Of a DNA stretch of 58,241 bases, positions 16,747 to 24,887 are shown piece by piece. The notes under the pieces were generated by a model. The model searched no databases. It was not told the DNA's origin and saw nothing but the letters and a program-made list of their open reading frames with translations. The DNA is taken from the NCBI GenBank assembly GCA_016872555.1, contig VGZO01000027.1, forward strand, positions 1-58,241. The letters are read 5' to 3'. The stretch comes from Planctomycetota bacterium (lineage in GTDB: Bacteria > Planctomycetota > Planctomycetia > Pirellulales > UBA1268). Each line of letters starts with the position of its first letter. The first letter of the stretch is position 1. The position numbers and the translations under genes are program-made.

Positions 16747-17685
16747 ATGGCCACCGGAATCGTCCTCTCGCCGCGGTACCGCGAGCATCTCACCGGGGCC
16801 GGGCATCCCGAGCGCCCCGAGCGCGTGGCGGCGATCGAGGAGCGGCTGCGGACCGACGGGCTGCTCGAGCGCCTCGAGCGAATCGAACCGCGGGGGGCCG
16901 ACGACGCCGAATTGCTCCGCGTCCACCCGGCCGAGTACCTGGCGACCGTGCGCCGCGACGTCGCCGGCGGCGGCGAGACGCTGTCCACCGGCGACACGGC
17001 GATCTGCCCGGCGTCGGCCGACGTGGCCACGCTCGCGGCCGGCGGCCTGCTCGCGGCCGTCGATGCGGTCTGCATCGGCCGCGTCGCCAACGCGTTCGCC
17101 GTCGTCCGCCCCCCTGGCCACCATGCGACGCCGGCGCGCGGGATGGGGTTTTGCCTGTTCTCGAACGTGGCCCTCGCCGCGCGCCACGCCCAGGCCGTCC
17201 ACGGCGTCTCGCGGGTGCTCGTCGCCGATTGGGACGTGCACCATGGCAACGGCACGCAGGACGTCTTCTATGAAGACCCGGGCGTCTTGTTCTTCGACAC
17301 CCACCAGCATCCGCTCTATCCCGGCACCGGCCTGGCCCACGAGACGGGGCGCGGGGCGGGGCAGGGATCCACGATCAACTGCCCGTTTCCCGCCGGGGCG
17401 GGGCGCGACGAGGTGGTGGCGGCGTTTCGCGAGAAGCTCGTCCCCGCGGCCGACGCCTTTCGGCCTGACCTGGTGATCGTGTCGGCCGGATTCGATTCGC
17501 GGGTCGGCGATCCGCTCGGCGGGTTTCGCCTCACCGACGACGACTTCGCCGAGTTGACGGCGATCGTCTGCGGCATCGCGGCGCGCCACTGCGGCGGCCG
17601 GCTCGTGTCGAGCCTCGAAGGGGGCTATTCGCTCGCCGGCTTGGCCAGCGCCGCGGCGGCGCACGTGGGGGCGCTCGTGTCCTGA
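16747..17685 (+). CDS. histone-deacetylase-family (acetoin utilisation/acetylpolyamine) amidohydrolase
   Basis: 312 residues, full length for the bacterial class. The charge-relay pair is in [16 protein letters not shown]. The zinc ligands are in [12 protein letters not shown] (Asp, His) and [14 protein letters not shown] (Asp). ECxx-like glycine loops come at the C-terminus ([12 protein letters not shown], with the active-site Tyr). Bacterial members remove acetyl groups from polyamines or other small amides; the substrate is not predictable here. A TAGTCT hexamer at 16701-16706 sits 40 bp upstream as a possible -10 element. It is a single-gene unit between two leftward genes. Confidence 0.9.
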
Positions 17686-17707
17686 GCCCGGTGCCCACGC
17701 GACGGCT

Positions 17708-18319
17708 TCAGGCAGCACCGGCCGGGTCGCGGAGGCAGGCGCGGAGGATGTCGACGAACGCCTCGAGCGGCGGCGTCTCGAGCCCGGCGACCTTCGCCTC
17801 GTCGTCCCAGCGCCGCAGTTGGACCGCCGCCCGCCAGTGGGGCTCGGCTTCGAACACCGCCACCTCGGTGGCGTTCATCGGGCCCCCCTGGAGCGTCAGG
17901 CTGGTGCGCGACGGGGCGCTGAGCCGCGCCAGGTAGGCCGGTTCCACGGCGGTGAGGTAGCGCTTGGCGGCGACGTGGAGCCGGATCGGATCGCAGACCT
18001 CGGGGCCGAAGACCCGCGCCAAGCGCCGCGCCGCGAGGGCTTCGTGGCGGTCGTCGATGCCGCGGTCGGGGGCGTCGTCCGGGAGCCCGTGGAGGAGATG
18101 GCCGAGGTCGTGGAGCAGCGCGGCGGCGACGAGCGCGTCGGCAGCCCCGGCAGCGGCCGCGAGTGTCGCCGCCTGCAAGGCGTGTTCGAGCTGCGTCACC
18201 GCCTCGCCGCCATATTCGGAGTCGCCGTGCTTCGCGAACAGCTCCGTGATCGCGGCCAGAGGATCGCCGCTGTCGGCTCTGGCGGCGGGCTCGCGGTCGT
18301 CACGATCGGGAGCGGCCAT
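17708..18319 (-). CDS. PhnZ-like HD-domain mixed-valent diiron oxygenase
   Basis: 203 residues. The HD ligands are H46, H70-D71, H92, H115 and D172. The extra residues of PhnZ are also present at matching spacing: Y36 and E39 in EYGGEAVTQLEH, H74 in LLHDLGHLL, and K119. PhnZ oxidatively cleaves 2-amino-1-hydroxyethylphosphonate to glycine and phosphate. No PhnY hydroxylase or phosphonate transporter is near. The gene is the last of a leftward run after a FAH-family protein and an aldehyde dehydrogenase of pentose-acid breakdown, 57 bp downstream. It may be a stand-alone phosphonate oxygenase or act on an inositol- or sugar-like substrate, as the related MIOX does. Confidence 0.78.
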   Translation of the reverse strand: MAAPDRDDREPAARADSGDPLAAITELFAKHGDSEYGGEAVTQLEHALQAATLAAAAGAADALVAAALLHDLGHLLHGLPDDAPDRGIDDRHEALAARRLARVFGPEVCDPIRLHVAAKRYLTAVEPAYLARLSAPSRTSLTLQGGPMNATEVAVFEAEPHWRAAVQLRRWDDEAKVAGLETPPLEAFVDILRACLRDPAGAA

Positions 18320-18376
18320 GGCGGTCCTCCGAGCTCGGTGGGGGTGGGGTACTCGGCGGAAACGGTGAAGCGCCTG

Positions 18377-19966
18377 TCAGGCGAGCGCCTCGCGCGACGG
18401 CCGGCCGTCGACGAGGCGCACGATCCCGAGCGGGTTGGCGTTTTGCAGGGCCGCCGGCAACATGCCGTCGGGCACGTCCTGATAGCAGACCGGCCGGATG
18501 AAGCGCTCGAGCGCCGCGGCACCGACGCTCGTGAACCGCGGGTCGCTGGTCGCCGGCCAGGGGCCGCCGTGCTGCATCGCGTGGCCGACCTCGACGCCGG
18601 TCGGGTAGCCGTTGACGATCAGCCGGCCGGCCTTGGTGGCGAGGATCGCCAGCAACTCGGCCGCCTGCTCGAGATCGGCCGGCGTGCCATGGACGGTGGC
18701 GGTGAGCTGACCGTCGAGGTGGCGGGCGACGGCGAGCAGCTCGTCGGGCGTGGCCGCCGACACGACGAGGCTCGCCGGGCCGAAGACCTCCTCGCCGAGC
18801 CGCGCGTCGCCGAGGAAAGCGGCGGCGGTCGTGGTCGCCACCAGCGCCACCGCGTCGTCGGGGCGCGTGCCGGCGGCACCGGTGGCCAGCAGCGCCGTAC
18901 CGCCGTTGCCGACGAGGTCGCCGCTGCCCTTCCGGTAGGCGGCGAGGATCTCGCTTGTGAGCATCCGCCCCGGCGCGGCGCCCGCGACGGCGCTGGCGAG
19001 GAGCCCGCGGAAGTGGGCGAAGTCGGGCCCCTCGACGCCGACGACCAGCCCCGGCTTGGTGCAGAACTGGCCGACGCCGAGCGTCATCGAGCCGACGAAC
19101 CCGGTGGCGATCGCCTCGGCGCGCGCCGCCAGGGCGCCGGGGAGGAGGAACACCGGATTGAGGCTGCTCATCTCGGCGAACACCGGGATCGGAAACGGCC
19201 GCCGCGCGGCGGCGTCGAACAGCGCCCGGCCGCCGGCGCGCGATCCGGTGAACCCGACCGCGGCGGCGAGCGGATGCTCGACCAGCGCCGTGCCGACGGT
19301 CGCCCCCGCGCCATGGAGCATCCCGAACACCCCCGCCGGCAAGCCCGCCTTCGCGACCGCGCGTTCGACCGCCCCGGCGACGAGCTCCGACGTGCCCGGA
19401 TGGCCGCGGTGCGCCTTGACGACGACCGGATTGCCGGTCGCCAGGGCGCTGGCGGTATCGCCGCCCGCCACGGAGAACGCGAGCGGGAAATTACTGGAGC
19501 CGAACACGATCACCGGTCCGAGCGGCACCTTGACGCGGCGGATGTCGGCCCGCGGCAGCGGCTGGCGCGAGGGTTGGGCGGGATCGATCCGCGCGTCGCA
19601 CCACGTGCCCTCGCGCGCCAGCGCCGCGAACAGCCGCAGCTGGCCGACCGTGCGCCCCCGTTCGCCGACGACGCGCGCTTCGGGCAGCGCCGTCTCGGCG
19701 CGGACCCGGGCGATGAGGTCGTCGCCGAGCGCGAGGATCTCCTCGGCGATCCCCTCGAGCAGCGCGGCGCGGACGGCACCGGTCGTCGCGGCGAAGACGG
19801 GAAACGCGTCGGCGGCGGCGCACACCGCGTCGGCCGCGTCGGCCGGTGTCGCCAGCGCGAACCGGCCAGGCAGCTCCGCCCCGTCGGCCGGGCCGGTCGC
19901 CGCGAACGTCGTCGTGCCGCCGCGCCGGGTGCCGGCGATGAACTGCTGCCCATGGAACGCGGTCAC
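18377..19966 (-). CDS. aldehyde dehydrogenase, 2-oxoglutarate-semialdehyde (2,5-dioxovalerate) type
   Basis: 529 residues, close to the NADP-dependent ketoglutaric-semialdehyde dehydrogenase family. Catalytic residues: N159 (FGSSNFPLAFS), E265 (VFAEMSSLNPVF) and C302 (GVGQFCTKPG). The EMSSxNPVFxxPG block is characteristic of this subgroup. The start is GTG 19966 with GAGGAG seven bases ahead; upstream codons in the same frame are not homologous. It follows the FAH-family gene by 46 bp and would oxidise its product to 2-oxoglutarate, the last step of Weimberg-type pentose or hexarate breakdown. Adjacent genes support this reading. Confidence 0.88.
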   Translation of the reverse strand: MTAFHGQQFIAGTRRGGTTTFAATGPADGAELPGRFALATPADAADAVCAAADAFPVFAATTGAVRAALLEGIAEEILALGDDLIARVRAETALPEARVVGERGRTVGQLRLFAALAREGTWCDARIDPAQPSRQPLPRADIRRVKVPLGPVIVFGSSNFPLAFSVAGGDTASALATGNPVVVKAHRGHPGTSELVAGAVERAVAKAGLPAGVFGMLHGAGATVGTALVEHPLAAAVGFTGSRAGGRALFDAAARRPFPIPVFAEMSSLNPVFLLPGALAARAEAIATGFVGSMTLGVGQFCTKPGLVVGVEGPDFAHFRGLLASAVAGAAPGRMLTSEILAAYRKGSGDLVGNGGTALLATGAAGTRPDDAVALVATTTAAAFLGDARLGEEVFGPASLVVSAATPDELLAVARHLDGQLTATVHGTPADLEQAAELLAILATKAGRLIVNGYPTGVEVGHAMQHGGPWPATSDPRFTSVGAAALERFIRPVCYQDVPDGMLPAALQNANPLGIVRLVDGRPSREALA

Positions 19967-20012
19967 GGAGCGACTCCTCGACGGGACGCCGGCACGTGGG
20001 CCGGGCTGACGA

Positions 20013-20897
20013 TCAGACGACGACGACCGGGTTGGCAAGCGCGCCGACGCCGTCGATCGTGATCGCGACGGCGTCGCCGCCGGCGAGCGTGAACGACTCG
20101 TCGGGCACGATGCCCGTGCCGGTAAGCAGCACGGCGCCAGCCGGAAACGTGTTGCAGCGGCAGAGATGGCCGATGAGGTCGGCGAACGGGCGCTTGATCC
20201 GGTCGACCGTCGTCTCGCCGGAAAACACAACCGCGTCACCGCGGCGGATCTCGATCGTGATCCGCCAGGTGCGGATCGCCGCTTCGTCGCTGCCGAGCAC
20301 GATCCACGGGCCGAGGGCACAGGAGCGGTCGTAGACCTTCGCCTGCGGCAGGTAGAGGAGGTTCTCCCCTTCGATGTCGCGGCTGCTCATGTCGTTGCCG
20401 ACCGTGCAGCCGACCAGTCGGCCGTCGGGCGCGATGACCAGCGCCAGCTCCGGCTCCGGCACGCTCCACGCCGCGTCGCGTCTGATCCCGACCGGTTCGC
20501 CGGGGCCCACCGCCCGGGCGCCGACCGCCTTGAAGAACAGTTCCGGCCGAACCGCCTCGTAGACGCGGTCGTAGGCCGTGGCGGCAAACTCCGACTCCTC
20601 CATCCGGGCCGTCTTGCTCCGCAGGTAGGTGACCCCGGCCGCCCACACCTCCTGGTCGGGATCGACCGGAGCGCGGAGCACGACGTCGGCCAGCGACAGA
20701 GAATGCAGTGCCCGGCGGACCGCGTCGGCGAGGGCGGCGGCGGGATCGCCGGCCGCGAGGATCGTCCGCAGCCGGGGCACGCCGCTGGTCGACAGGTCGT
20801 GGATCCGCTTGCCGTCGAGACTGCCGCCGACGCGGATGTCGGCGGGATCGTCGGCCAGCGAGAAGCGGCAGAGGAAGGGGCCGGCGGCGGGGGGCAT
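20013..20897 (-). CDS. fumarylacetoacetate-hydrolase-family protein, probable 2-keto-3-deoxy-pentonate dehydratase
   Basis: 294 residues. Fold markers are [21 protein letters not shown], the acidic metal ligands in [11 protein letters not shown], and the long block [21 protein letters not shown] that is typical of the XylX/KdaD branch rather than of fumarylacetoacetase. This branch dehydrates 2-keto-3-deoxy-D-pentonate to 2-oxoglutarate semialdehyde. It is first in the leftward operon and divergent from the pentonate dehydratase, so the three enzymes can run pentonate to 2-oxoglutarate. No sugar dehydrogenase or lactonase is in the window. Confidence 0.82.
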
Positions 20898-20993
20898 GGC
20901 GTGACTTGGCGGGGACGGGGCGAGGACGCAGAGTATATCGCCGTGCCGAGCCGTGACTTGTGCCGTGCGTCGTCCGCAGCGAGAGACCAACCG
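20898..20993. promoter_or_regulatory. divergent control region of the sugar-acid cluster
   Basis: This 96-bp gap separates the two divergent arms of the sugar-acid cluster. CGTGACTTG occurs twice in the same orientation, at 20900-20908 and 20952-20960, 52 bp or about five helical turns apart. That is a plausible pair of sites for one regulator. TATATC at 20934 could be a -10 element for the rightward gene. No regulator gene lies next to it. Confidence 0.35.
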
Positions 20994-22946
20994 ATGACCT
21001 CATCCGCCGCCACGCCCGGGTTCGACTCCGCCGACGAGTCGATCTACGCGGTCGCGACCTCGTCGCCCGGCCCGACGGGAAAGCTGCCGCTCACCGACCG
21101 GATGCTCCGCGACAGCCCCAGCGGCGACCTGTTCGGGCTGTCGCAGAACGTCGGCATGGGATGGAAGCCGGCCAACGCCGCCGCGGCGCAGGTCATGCTC
21201 CTCAGCACGCAGGGGGGCATCCGGCGCCCCGACGGCACGCCCGTCGCCCTCGGCCTCCACACCGGCCACTGGGAGATCGGATTGCTCGTCGAGGCGGCGG
21301 CGGCGGCACTCGAGTCGGCCGGCCTGGTCCCGTTCGCCGCTGCCTGCTCCGATCCCTGCGACGGGCGCACGCAGGGGACGACGGGGATGTTCGACAGCCT
21401 GCCGTACCGCAACGACGCGGCGATCGTGCTGCGGCGGCTTGCCCGGTCGCTGCCGCAGCGCCGGGCGGTGATCGGGATCGCCACCTGCGACAAGGGGCTC
21501 CCGGCGATGATGATGGCGCTGGCCGGCCTCGGCGACCGGCCCGGAGCGATCGTGCCCGGCGGAGTCACGCTGCCTCCCGAGCGCGGAGAAGATGCCGGGA
21601 CGATCCAGACGATCGGCACCCGCTACGTCCACGGCCGGATCACGCTCGAGGAGGCGGCCGACCTCGGCTGCCGCGCCTGCGCCTCCCCCGGCGGCGGCTG
21701 CCAATTTCTCGGGACCGCGGCCACGGCGCAGGTCGTGGCCGAGGCGCTCGGACTGACCGTGCCCCACGCGGCCCTCTCGCCCAGCGGCCAGCCGGTGTGG
21801 CTCGACATGGCCGTCCGCTCGGCGCGCGCGGTCGTCGCCAGGATCGCCGCCGGCGACACGCTCGCCGCGATCCTCACGACCGCGGCGCTGCGCAACGCGA
21901 TGGTCGTCCACGCCGCGTTCGGCGGATCGACCAACCTGCTCCTCCACGTCCCGGCGATCGCGCACGCCGCCGGTCTCGAGCCCCCGAGCGTGGCCGACTG
22001 GATCGACGTCAACCAGCGCGTGCCGCGCCTGGTCAGCGTGCTTCCCAACGGCCCCGAGCACCACCCGACGGTGCGCGTGTTCCTCGCCGGCGGCGTCCCC
22101 GAGGTGATGCTCCACCTCGACCGCCTCGGCCTCCTCGACACGAGCGTGCGGACCGTGTCGGGGGGCACGCTTGCCGACCAGCTCGCCTGGTGGGAATCGA
22201 GCGAGAGGCGGCAGCGCTTCCGCGAGCGCCTCGCCGCCGACGGCATCGAACCCGACGACGTGATCCTGCCCCCCGCGCGGGCGCGACACCGGGGGCTGCG
22301 CGGCACGATGGCGTTTCCGCGCGGCACGCTCGCGCCGGAGGGGAGCGTGGTCAAGGCGACGGCCATCGACCCGGCAGCCTGCGACGACCAGGGGCGCTAC
22401 CGGCACCGCGGGCCGGCGCGCGTGTTTACCAGCGAGCGGCAGGCGATGGCGGCGATCAAGGAGGGGCGGATCCGGGCCGGCGACGTGGTCGTGCTCGCGG
22501 GCATCGGGCCGCTCGGCACGGGGATGGAGGAGACCTACCAGGTGACCTCGGCGATCAAGCAGCTCCCGTTCGCCGCTCGGGTGGCGGTTGTCACCGACGC
22601 GCGGTTCTCCGGGGTCTCGACCGGGGCGTGCATCGGCCATGTCGGGCCTGAGGCGCTGGCCGGTGGGCCGCTCGGCAAGCTCGTCGACGGCGACGAGATC
22701 GCGATCACGATCGATCCGGCCACGGCGACGGGACGGATCGACCTGGTCGGCGACGGGAAGCGCGAATTCACCGTTGCCGAAGCCGAGGCGGAGCTCGACC
22801 GGCGGCCGTTGCGGAGCGACCTCGCCCCCGATGCCTGCCTCCCGGCCGACACCCGGCTGTGGGCCGTGCTCCAGGGGATCAGCGGGGGCACGTGGGCCGG
22901 GTGCGTCTACGACCCGGACCGGATCGCCCGCCGGCTGGGGGGCTGA
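20994..22946 (+). CDS. yjhG: IlvD/Edd-family pentonate (D-xylonate) dehydratase, YjhG/YagF type
   Basis: 650 residues, the length of YjhG/YagF. The N-terminal [20 protein letters not shown] and [11 protein letters not shown] blocks are specific to this branch and absent from IlvD. Iron-sulfur and active-site Cys lie in [12 protein letters not shown] (118-129), ATCDKGLP (163-170) and [13 protein letters not shown]. The enzyme dehydrates D-xylonate (or a related pentonate) to 2-keto-3-deoxy-xylonate. In E. coli the partner is an aldolase; here the divergent genes encode a dehydratase and a semialdehyde dehydrogenase, the oxidative branch. The long upstream in-frame extension is not homologous; ATG 20994 fits. 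Confidence 0.9.
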
Positions 22947-22972: not shown

Positions 22973-23086
22973 GCGGAAAAAGCCGTGTCCGGCCGATAAC
23001 TTGTGTGGACGACTGATGTCGAGACGGCTATTTTTACGCCAGTTGCCCGAGTCAGAGACGGCGACGTGGTTTCGCCGGTGCCGCCG

Positions 23087-23584
23087 ATGCATGCAAAAGT
23101 CTCCGTTCAGCGTGCCAACTCGCCGCGCGGGAAGTGCGATTCGCCCGAGCAGGAGGCCTACCTCCACATGTGGCGGACCTACGACCTGCTCAAGGCTCTC
23201 GAAGAGCAGGTCTTCGATCGCCACGACCTCTCCGCCCAGCAGTACAACGCCCTGCGGATTCTCGCCGACGCCGCCCCCGACTCGTTGCCAACGCTCGCCC
23301 TCGCCGGCCGGCTGGTGTCGCGGGCCCCGGACATTACCCGGCTCCTCGACCGGCTCGAGCGACGCGGTCTGATCCGCCGCGACCGCCGTGCCGACAACCG
23401 CCGCGTCGTCGCCGTCTCGATCACCTGGGCCGGCACGGCGCTCCTCGACGACCTGGCCGACGAGATCGTCGCCTGCGGTCACCGCCAACTCGGTCACATG
23501 AAGCCCTCTGACCTGCGCCTCCTCGTCGACCTGCTCCGTGCGGCACGCGCCCCTCACGAGCGCGAGCGGCGCGGCGACGCCTGA
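23087..23584 (+). CDS. MarR-family transcriptional regulator
   Basis: 165 residues from ATG 23087. A winged-helix core of the MarR type is clear. The dimer helix is EAYLHMWRTYDLLKALEEQV, then LSAQQYNALRILADA, the recognition region LAGRLVSRAPDITRLLDRLERRGLI, and the wing RRDRRADNRRVVAVSITWAG. A GTG at 23003 in the same frame would add 28 residues, but that part looks like leader DNA. The flavoprotein gene starts 31 bp downstream on the same strand, so the regulator probably controls it, possibly in response to a small aromatic ligand (inference). Confidence 0.86.
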   Translation: MHAKVSVQRANSPRGKCDSPEQEAYLHMWRTYDLLKALEEQVFDRHDLSAQQYNALRILADAAPDSLPTLALAGRLVSRAPDITRLLDRLERRGLIRRDRRADNRRVVAVSITWAGTALLDDLADEIVACGHRQLGHMKPSDLRLLVDLLRAARAPHERERRGDA

Positions 23585-23615
23585 ACCGACCCCGATCCCC
23601 ACGCGGAGACGTCCC

Positions 23616-24887
23616 ATGATGGTCGCCCTGCCCGAAACCCCGTCGCGGACCGACGTCGTCGTCATCGGCGGCGGGCCCGCCGGCTCCACCGCGGCCACGC
23701 TCGTCGCCCGCGCTGGCCACCGGGTCACGCTGCTCGAGCGCGAGCGGTTTCCCCGCTACCACATCGGCGAATCGCTGATTCCCGAGACGTTCTGGGTCCT
23801 CGAACGCCTCGGTGTGCTCGACCGGCTCCGCGATGCCGCGTACGTCCAAAAGCGGAGCGTGCAGTTCGTGACCGGCACGGGGAAGCTGTCGGCGCCGTTT
23901 TATTTCCAGGAGCACAAGCCGCACGACTCGTCGCAGACCTGGCAGGTGGAGCGGGCCGACTTCGACCTGATGATGCTCGACAACGCCCGCGAGGCGGGCG
24001 TCGAGGTTCACGAAGGGACGCGCGTCCTCGAGGTCTTGTTCGACGGCGAGCGCGCCCGTGGCGTGGCGATCGCCGACCCGGCGGCACCCGGTGGCCGCCG
24101 TGAGATTCATGCCGACGTCGTCGTTGATGCCGCCGGGCAGAGCGGCCTGATTCTCGACCGCCTCGGCCTCCGCGAGTGGGACCCGGTCCTCAAGAAGGCG
24201 GCACTGTGGACCTACTGGAAGGGGGCGACCCGCGACACCGGCCGCGATTCGGGTGCGACGCTGGTGATGCAACTCGACAACAAGCTCGGCTGGTTCTGGT
24301 ACATCCCGCTGCGCGACGATGTCACGAGCATCGGCGTCGTCGCGCCGTTCGAGTACCTGTTCAAGGATCGCCCGACGAAGGACCATGAGGCGATTTACCG
24401 GGAGGAGCTGGCCCGCTGCCCCGGTTTGCAGTCGCGCCTCGGGGAGGCGACGCAGTTCGGCCCGTACCGGGCGGCGAAGGAGTATTCCTACCGCTCGCGG
24501 CAGGTGGCCGGCGACGGCTGGGTGCTCGTCGGCGATGCCTTCGGATTCCTCGATCCGCTGTACTCGTCGGGAATCCTCCTCGCGCTGCATTCCGGTGCCA
24601 AAGCTGCCGACGCGATCGTCGCGGGGTTGGCGGCGGGCGACACGTCGGCCGAGCGGCTCGGCAGTTGGGGCGCGGAGTACGTCGCCGGGATGGAGCGGAT
24701 GCGGCGGCTGGTCTGCGAGTTTTACGACGGCTTCAATTTCGGCGGGTTCGTCAAGAAGCATCCCGACCTCAAGGGGCACATCACCGACCTGTTGATCGGC
24801 GACTTGTTCACCTCCAGGACCGACGTCCTCGTCGAGCCGATGGACTCGTTTCGGGCCGAACGGCAGGCGCTGCCCGCGGCAGGCTGA
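23616..24887 (+). CDS. FAD-dependent monooxygenase/halogenase-like flavoprotein
   Basis: 423 residues. FAD-binding GGGPAG at 18-23, the RFPRYHIGESLIP block (44-56) and the second FAD motif WVLVGDAFGFLDPLYSSG (302-319) place it in the geranylgeranyl-reductase/flavin-halogenase group. GWFWYIP at 225-231 matches the GWxWxIP fingerprint used for flavin-dependent halogenases. K79 in QKRSVQF stands where the free-standing halogenases carry a catalytic Lys, though the flanking residues differ. Substrate unknown. It could equally be an oxidoreductase that retained the fingerprint. It is preceded by the MarR gene; GGAG lies nine bases ahead of the ATG. Confidence 0.8.
   Translation: MMVALPETPSRTDVVVIGGGPAGSTAATLVARAGHRVTLLERERFPRYHIGESLIPETFWVLERLGVLDRLRDAAYVQKRSVQFVTGTGKLSAPFYFQEHKPHDSSQTWQVERADFDLMMLDNAREAGVEVHEGTRVLEVLFDGERARGVAIADPAAPGGRREIHADVVVDAAGQSGLILDRLGLREWDPVLKKAALWTYWKGATRDTGRDSGATLVMQLDNKLGWFWYIPLRDDVTSIGVVAPFEYLFKDRPTKDHEAIYREELARCPGLQSRLGEATQFGPYRAAKEYSYRSRQVAGDGWVLVGDAFGFLDPLYSSGILLALHSGAKAADAIVAGLAAGDTSAERLGSWGAEYVAGMERMRRLVCEFYDGFNFGGFVKKHPDLKGHITDLLIGDLFTSRTDVLVEPMDSFRAERQALPAAG

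Follow-up and report, generated by a model that had tools for sequence, protein, structure and literature searches.

The question raised by this locus is whether a putative diiron oxygenase encoded directly behind pentonate-type genes acts on sugar-like compounds or on phosphonates. The window, by which we mean the whole 58,241-nucleotide stretch analyzed (contig VGZO01000027.1 of the Planctomycetota bacterium assembly GCA_016872555.1), contains at 17708..18319 on the minus strand a gene for an HD-domain mixed-valent diiron oxygenase of 203 amino acids (TIGR03276, Phn-HD or PhnHD; here "HD"), with an ATG start preceded by GGAGG as its own ribosome-binding site. An earlier note, made from the sequence alone, had taken the protein for a PhnZ-like enzyme at the end of a pentonate operon, possibly with a sugar-like or polyol substrate. 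We arrive at a different reading, to which we assign a probability of about 0.86: HD would be a PhnHD-type diiron oxygenase of phosphonate catabolism that has been displaced from its phosphonate cluster and probably cleaves 1-hydroxyphosphonates, such as (R)-2-amino-1-hydroxyethylphosphonate (R-HAEP), without a dedicated PhnY.

Family, active site, and predicted fold

HD matched TIGR03276, the model for phosphonate degradation HD-domain oxygenases, with 228.1 bits against a curated cut-off of 214.6 (E, 5.3e-68), and it carries the residues by which membership is judged: the diiron ligands H..HD..H..H..D with an additional conserved His, the YxxE lid, and the Lys/Arg/Gln/Ser phosphonate site. 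By score and residues, its sequence places it in TIGR03276. The hallmark residues listed in the earlier note (Y36, E39, H46, H70, D71, H74, H92, H115, K119, and D172) proved invariant in an alignment of 15 sequences including TmpB and PhnZ, as were S137, Q144, and R169, and all 13 were also invariant among 22 HD proteins from the window's own genome and its relatives. The AlphaFold model of HD had a mean predicted local distance difference test score (pLDDT) of 89.3, and a fold search with this model returned 10 PDB chains at an E value of ≤0.001, all of them TmpB or PhnZ; identity to TmpB in the fold alignment was 39 to 40%. When HD was compared to all PDB chain sequences, the only real matches, well beyond what chance would give, were again TmpB (6npa; 127 bits; E, 8.1e-36; over residues 13 to 194) and PhnZ (~104 bits; E, 1.1e-28). 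Sequence, residues, and predicted fold agree in this respect with the earlier note, which had proposed a PhnZ-like mixed-valent diiron oxygenase. The equivalog models were more restrictive: those for TmpB (179.8 bits) and for the hydroxymethylphosphonate dioxygenase GmPhnZ1 (NF052439; 173.4 bits) scored far below their cut-offs of 300, and HD failed both tests.

Two nonphosphonate readings bear on these data. Pfam finds a generic PF01966 HD domain in the protein, as would be expected if it were an HD phosphohydrolase and not an oxygenase; with the diiron ligand set and the YxxE motif complete and the close structures limited to TmpB and PhnZ, we find this barely credible. HD could also be a sugar-acid, polyol, or inositol oxygenase absorbed into the pentonate pathway, as its position on the same strand, 57 bp behind an aldehyde dehydrogenase gene, might suggest, and myo-inositol oxygenase (MIOX), which has this class of fold, is indeed distantly related to it. 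However, no MIOX family appeared among the Pfam matches or the PDB sequence matches of HD, and mouse MIOX (2huo) was a poor match in the fold search (rank 19; E, 0.78; TMq, 0.49). HD keeps the lid Y36xxE39 and the phosphonate-site residues, whereas MIOX is described, in the available part of PMC8177086, as having no YxxE loop or lid.

Position in the HD tree

A quick tree was built from 112 HD proteins, with L035, L101, L056, and L064 left out because they had an internal stop or were too short. The HD protein of the window's own genome (G000) grouped with those of two genomes of the same genus, G001 and G002, with a support of 99. In the wider set of 54 rows around it, 41 of the 53 labelled rows have one of HpnW, PhnX, HpnZ, and DUF5690. 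TmpB and PhnZ fell outside this set, PhnZ on a very long branch. This position apart from both enzymes implies that HD is neither PhnZ proper nor TmpB, and we class it among the broad PhnHD proteins; the assignment to PhnZ proper fails on the separate place in the tree and on the want of a convincing PhnY* partner. In one relative, the HD gene itself is disrupted by a frameshift and an in-frame stop (L064; G142:C1:2899823-2900330).

Association with phosphonate genes across genomes

Co-occurrence was counted over 146 genomes, 34 with HD and 112 without. HpnW was present in 26 of the former and 8 of the latter (odds ratio, 42; P = 4e-15), PhnX in 29 and 21 (25; P = 2e-12), and DUF5690 in 24 and 16 (14; P = 1e-9); these tests ignore shared descent, and many of the genomes are incomplete. 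Xylonate dehydratase, in contrast, was found in 20/34 and 44/112 genomes (odds ratio, 2.2; P = 0.05), with odds ratios of 3.75 (P = 0.04) inside the window's family and 1.25 (P = 0.8) outside it, whereas the associations of HpnW, PhnX, and DUF5690 with HD stand on both sides of that divide. At least one of HpnW/PbfD, PhnX, and DUF5690 occurs in 33 of the 34 HD genomes. Where both genes are present, HD lies within 20 kb of HpnW in 15/26 genomes and of PhnX in 13/29. HD tracks phosphonate genes, not sugar-acid genes.

The neighborhoods of HD were compared in 80 named loci, which overlap with 33 loci from relatives (for example, L032 shares its HD with L087, and L037 shares its HD with L094). HpnW stood near HD at 25 loci, DUF5690 at 23, PhnX at 14, and HpnZ at 14, with any of the four at 31. 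Wherever DUF5690 (PF18943, a membrane family) was found in this set, in planctomycetes and Bacteroidetes, it lay within 1.5 kb of HD (23/23; an example is L045:9911-11317). A scan of the remaining loci covered 121 of the 153 listed neighbor proteins at 45 of 49 loci; L087, L094, L159, and some short or very long proteins were left out, and L165, for which the gene-calling script gave no HD open reading frame (ORF), stood outside the scan. It yielded matches to TmpA (7), PhnM (4), PhnE (3), phosphonoacetaldehyde dehydrogenase (3), PhnI (1), and PhnJ (1), and, by these tallies, nothing tied to phosphonates at the rest of the 45 loci. A class-III aminotransferase gene is located near some PhnHD genes (L042:11870-13192, also at L046, L049, L089, and L094); the aminotransferase beside HD is closest to HemL models, below their cut-offs, and is perhaps a stand-in for PhnW.

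Phosphonate genes of the same genome

G000 is 97.9% complete with 3.2% contamination and has one HD copy. On its contig C25, the genes for a zinc alcohol dehydrogenase, for PhnX (325 bits; cut-off, 220), and for HpnW (419 bits; cut-off, 285) share one strand, and those for DUF5690 (G000:C25:10145-11275, L082; 403 bits; cut-off, 25) and HpnZ (387.5 bits; cut-off, 328) are on the divergent side, with no HD among them. The order PhnX-HpnW-HD // DUF5690-HpnZ, with HD in place, was found in G098 (L045) and G090 (L050). Since the C25 set is without HD and these genomes have the same order including it, the window's HD is the piece absent from its own C25 phosphonate cluster. The phosphonate-gene context typical of TIGR03276 is seen across the family and in the genome at large, but not at the HD locus itself. 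HpnW and PhnX of G001 (C32) are 93 to 94% identical to those of C25, and those of G002 (C158, L085) are 57 to 59% identical, hinting that the phosphonate cluster may have been replaced within the genus.

The gene content also bears on the choice of substrate. HD might be a phosphonate oxygenase for a different compound, either hydroxymethylphosphonate, as for GmPhnZ1, or hydroxylated trimethylaminoethylphosphonate, as for TmpB. The two models score nearly equally on HD, and a methylphosphonate route has been described from a planctomycete (PMC6581173, in its available part). Against this, both scores are far under the cut-offs, HpnW and PhnX, which usually accompany HD, belong to aminoethylphosphonate metabolism, and G000 has no TauD-family gene and hence no TmpA. 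No convincing phnY was found in G000 either: its sole PhyH protein, on C18, reached 59 bits with the methylphosphonate hydroxylase model (cut-off, 500), less than the 69 bits obtained with ectoine hydroxylase, and its best solved-structure matches are amino-acid hydroxylases. A different phosphonate substrate is possible but doubtful in our view, and a true PhnY-PhnZ or TmpA-TmpB pair was rejected, as no convincing partner gene was found in G000. The PhyH dioxygenase is ~90% identical between G000 and G002 (L083:8328-9164 and L085:408-1238). In G002, ~7 kb of a single contig separates the homolog from HpnW-PhnX, so that a role for the C18 protein is just conceivable.

The HD locus in same-genus genomes

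Gene lists at the relatives' loci came from a crude gene-calling script, some of whose ORFs are probably in the wrong frame; the conclusions drawn here rest on tblastn and family searches. By blastn, G001 and G002 align with the window in the same order, apart from blocks of ~7.0 to 7.2 kb and 2.6 to 4.4 kb that flank HD. Where the window has a 57-bp gap (18320..18376) between the stop of the aldehyde dehydrogenase gene and the start of HD, both genomes have ~7 kb carrying an opposite-strand gene of 2200 to 2300 amino acids with passenger-repeat motifs and, in a homolog, a PEP-CTERM motif. The block following HD, 2.6 kb in G001 and 4.4 kb in G002, contains DUF1559 genes. In three genomes from a different genus of the family (L037, L039, and L041), homologs of the large gene occur close to HD or to phosphonate genes. 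This points to a loss of the two blocks from the window but is no proof of it. The HD of G003, a third genome of the window's genus, is not the same copy and has a DUF5690 gene as its neighbor.

Of the three loci compared within the genus, the window's is therefore the only one at which HD and aldehyde dehydrogenase adjoin. Of the 20 genomes with both xylonate dehydratase and HD, the two genes lie no more than 20 kb apart in G000 and G001 alone, and the only strong pentonate-gene match near HD in the 80 named loci was at L087, which is G001's own locus (identical HD). HD does not belong to a conserved pentonate operon, and what looks like a link between sugar and phosphonate use is a matter of local gene order in this genome. 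With the arrangement absent from G001/G002 and from 18/20 of the genomes that could show it, fold, residues, and genome statistics all speak against a MIOX-like or sugar oxygenase, which was rejected and which we consider very improbable.

The same arrangement could still have consequences in this strain if HD, as a phosphonate oxygenase, were co-transcribed with the pentonate genes, tying phosphorus scavenging to sugar-acid use. The shared strand and the 57-bp gap would allow this, and no promoter- or terminator-like site was found by a consensus scan of 17600-18500, although such scans say little in GC-rich DNA; the GGAGG site of HD has been listed in its favor as well. However, the arrangement is not conserved in G001/G002. 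With an opposite-strand gene in between, transcription from the promoter of aldehyde dehydrogenase cannot extend to HD in these genomes, and HD must have a promoter of its own. We regard co-transcription as unlikely.

These comparisons revise part of the earlier note. Its pentonate operon is not borne out, since gene order in relatives shows no conserved link of HD to sugar-acid genes, and a sugar-like or polyol substrate finds no support in the company that HD keeps. The absence of phosphonate genes holds for the neighborhood and not for the genome, in which PhnX, HpnW, DUF5690, and HpnZ are on C25. The note had also named the result that would speak against it, namely a protein deep inside true PhnZ, a phnY gene elsewhere in the genome, and no conserved sugar-acid link. 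In substance this result was obtained, with phosphonate genes elsewhere in the genome and no conserved sugar-acid link. It differs in detail, as HD takes a place within the broad TIGR03276 tree that is apart from PhnZ and TmpB alike, and no convincing phnY was found.

Several observations weigh against a displaced phosphonate oxygenase. HD is not adjacent to phosphonate genes in the window, G001, or G002, and in the window its strand and the short gap would permit read-through from aldehyde dehydrogenase. At 49 of the 80 named loci, none of HpnW, PhnX, HpnZ, and DUF5690 occurs in the stretch covered, and G021, one of 13 HD genomes of the window's own family, lacks HpnW, PhnX, and DUF5690. None of PhnW, PhnA, the C-P lyase protein PhnJ, and PhnE scored above the cut-off in G000, so that uptake rests on the candidate DUF5690. 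The 54-row clade around HD has a support of 88 and was drawn open, that is, as weakly supported. The available part of PMC11203657 warns that the metal motif by itself is no proof of an oxygenase, and the enzyme activity and substrate of HD are predicted.

Neighboring genes

The aldehyde dehydrogenase (18377..19966, minus strand; PF00171) probably serves a pentonate pathway as alpha-ketoglutarate semialdehyde dehydrogenase; its best NCBIfam model, 2,5-dioxovalerate dehydrogenase, gave 120 bits, far under the cut-off of 750. Beside it lies the gene for a FAH-fold protein (20013..20897, minus strand; PF01557), probably a 2-keto-3-deoxypentonate dehydratase, with a weak match to the AraD1-family model. 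Divergent from the latter gene is a YjhG/YagF family D-xylonate dehydratase (20994..22946, plus strand; TIGR03432, 1058.7 bits; cut-off, 808.15), the sole pentonate-type neighbor above a curated cut-off, which falls outside the interval 17708-20897 treated in the earlier note. We take the genes at 18377-22946 to resemble a xylonate/pentonate route to alpha-ketoglutarate, presumably a Weimberg-type pathway, and regard them as neighbors of HD, not partners. No PhnY or TmpA gene adjoins HD at this locus. Further on, a MarR-type regulator is followed by a tryptophan-halogenase family flavoprotein (23003-24887; PF04820, 123.6 bits).

Proposed mechanism and a candidate importer

On the model of PhnZ and TmpB (PMC8177086, available part), HD would hold an Fe(II)/Fe(III) pair through H46, H70-D71, H74, H92, H115, and D172. 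A 1-hydroxylated phosphonate, most likely R-HAEP or a close relative, would bind at the iron pair, with Y36 and E39 acting as a substrate-gated lid in which Y36 leaves the iron and E39 meets the substrate amino group. Abstraction of the C1 hydrogen by O2 would be followed by cleavage of the C-P bond, giving phosphate and a carboxylate, which would be glycine in the case of R-HAEP. R-HAEP is our first choice because genomes with PhnHD, HpnW, and PhnX otherwise handle aminoethylphosphonates and because of the pattern of phnZ homologs, which, in the available part of PMC8154272, are reported from clusters of the phnWX or phnWAY type, always without pbfA, as would fit a shared R-HAEP role. The same guess was reached by modeling for the Achromobacter enzyme (PMC11203657, available part).

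Because no dedicated PhnY was found, HD would use ready-made hydroxyphosphonates, probably imported as such. It would thereby complement a second route on C25, in which HpnW/PbfD turns aminoethylphosphonate (AEP) or N-methyl-AEP into phosphonoacetaldehyde for cleavage by PhnX; HpnZ may supply another alcohol to this route, and the DUF5690 membrane protein may import substrate. The position of HD behind the pentonate genes would result from a local rearrangement.

From its co-location with HD, DUF5690 may be a phosphonate importer. Tentatively, and at somewhat less than even odds, we propose a module of DUF5690 and PhnHD, with HpnW/PbfD, PhnX, and HpnZ, in planctomycetes and some Bacteroidetes, in which PhnHD would use ready-made 1-hydroxyphosphonates without PhnY, DUF5690 would be an undescribed phosphonate importer, and the window's PhnHD would have split off yet still work. 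In the literature searched, we found neither the DUF5690-PhnHD association nor a publication on HpnZ (TIGR03366). The comparison ties planctomycete PhnHD to HpnW/PbfD, PhnX, and HpnZ, and the nomination of DUF5690 for phosphonate transport is a direct experimental lead.

Comparison with known systems

MIOX (2huo) is distant from HD: it is likewise an HD-type diiron oxygenase but has no sequence match to HD, only a weak fold match, and, as described in the available part of PMC8177086, no YxxE lid. TmpB (6npa) shares all active-site residues with HD; it works with TmpA on trimethylaminoethylphosphonate, whereas G000 has no TmpA-type gene and HD stands apart in the tree. PhnZ (4mlm, 4mln, 4n71, and 4n6w) has the same fold and residues but works with PhnY*, scored lower than TmpB against HD (104 bits), and sits on a long separate branch. 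GmPhnZ1 of Gimesia maris is, like HD, a planctomycete HD oxygenase of phosphonates; HD is under the cut-off of its model, however, and G000 has no clear PhnY hydroxylase.

The PbfD2-PhnX pathway of Mariniblastus fucicola is a PhnW-less planctomycete route, and C25 likewise carries an HpnW (TIGR03364) and PhnX pair; in the available part of that source, PhnZ figures only as a pathway of its own and is not paired with PbfD (PMC10590968). A further close parallel is PhnHD of Achromobacter insolitus and A. aegrifaciens, which, in the available part of PMC11203657, belongs to the TIGR03276 clade in a genome with HpnW and PhnX, has no PhnW in its operon, and has HAEP as its predicted substrate. There, PhnHD adjoins the phosphonatase operon, whereas the window's HD lies on another contig beside pentonate genes. 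PhnHD beside HpnW and PhnX is thus already in print for Achromobacter; to this the window adds a displaced member.

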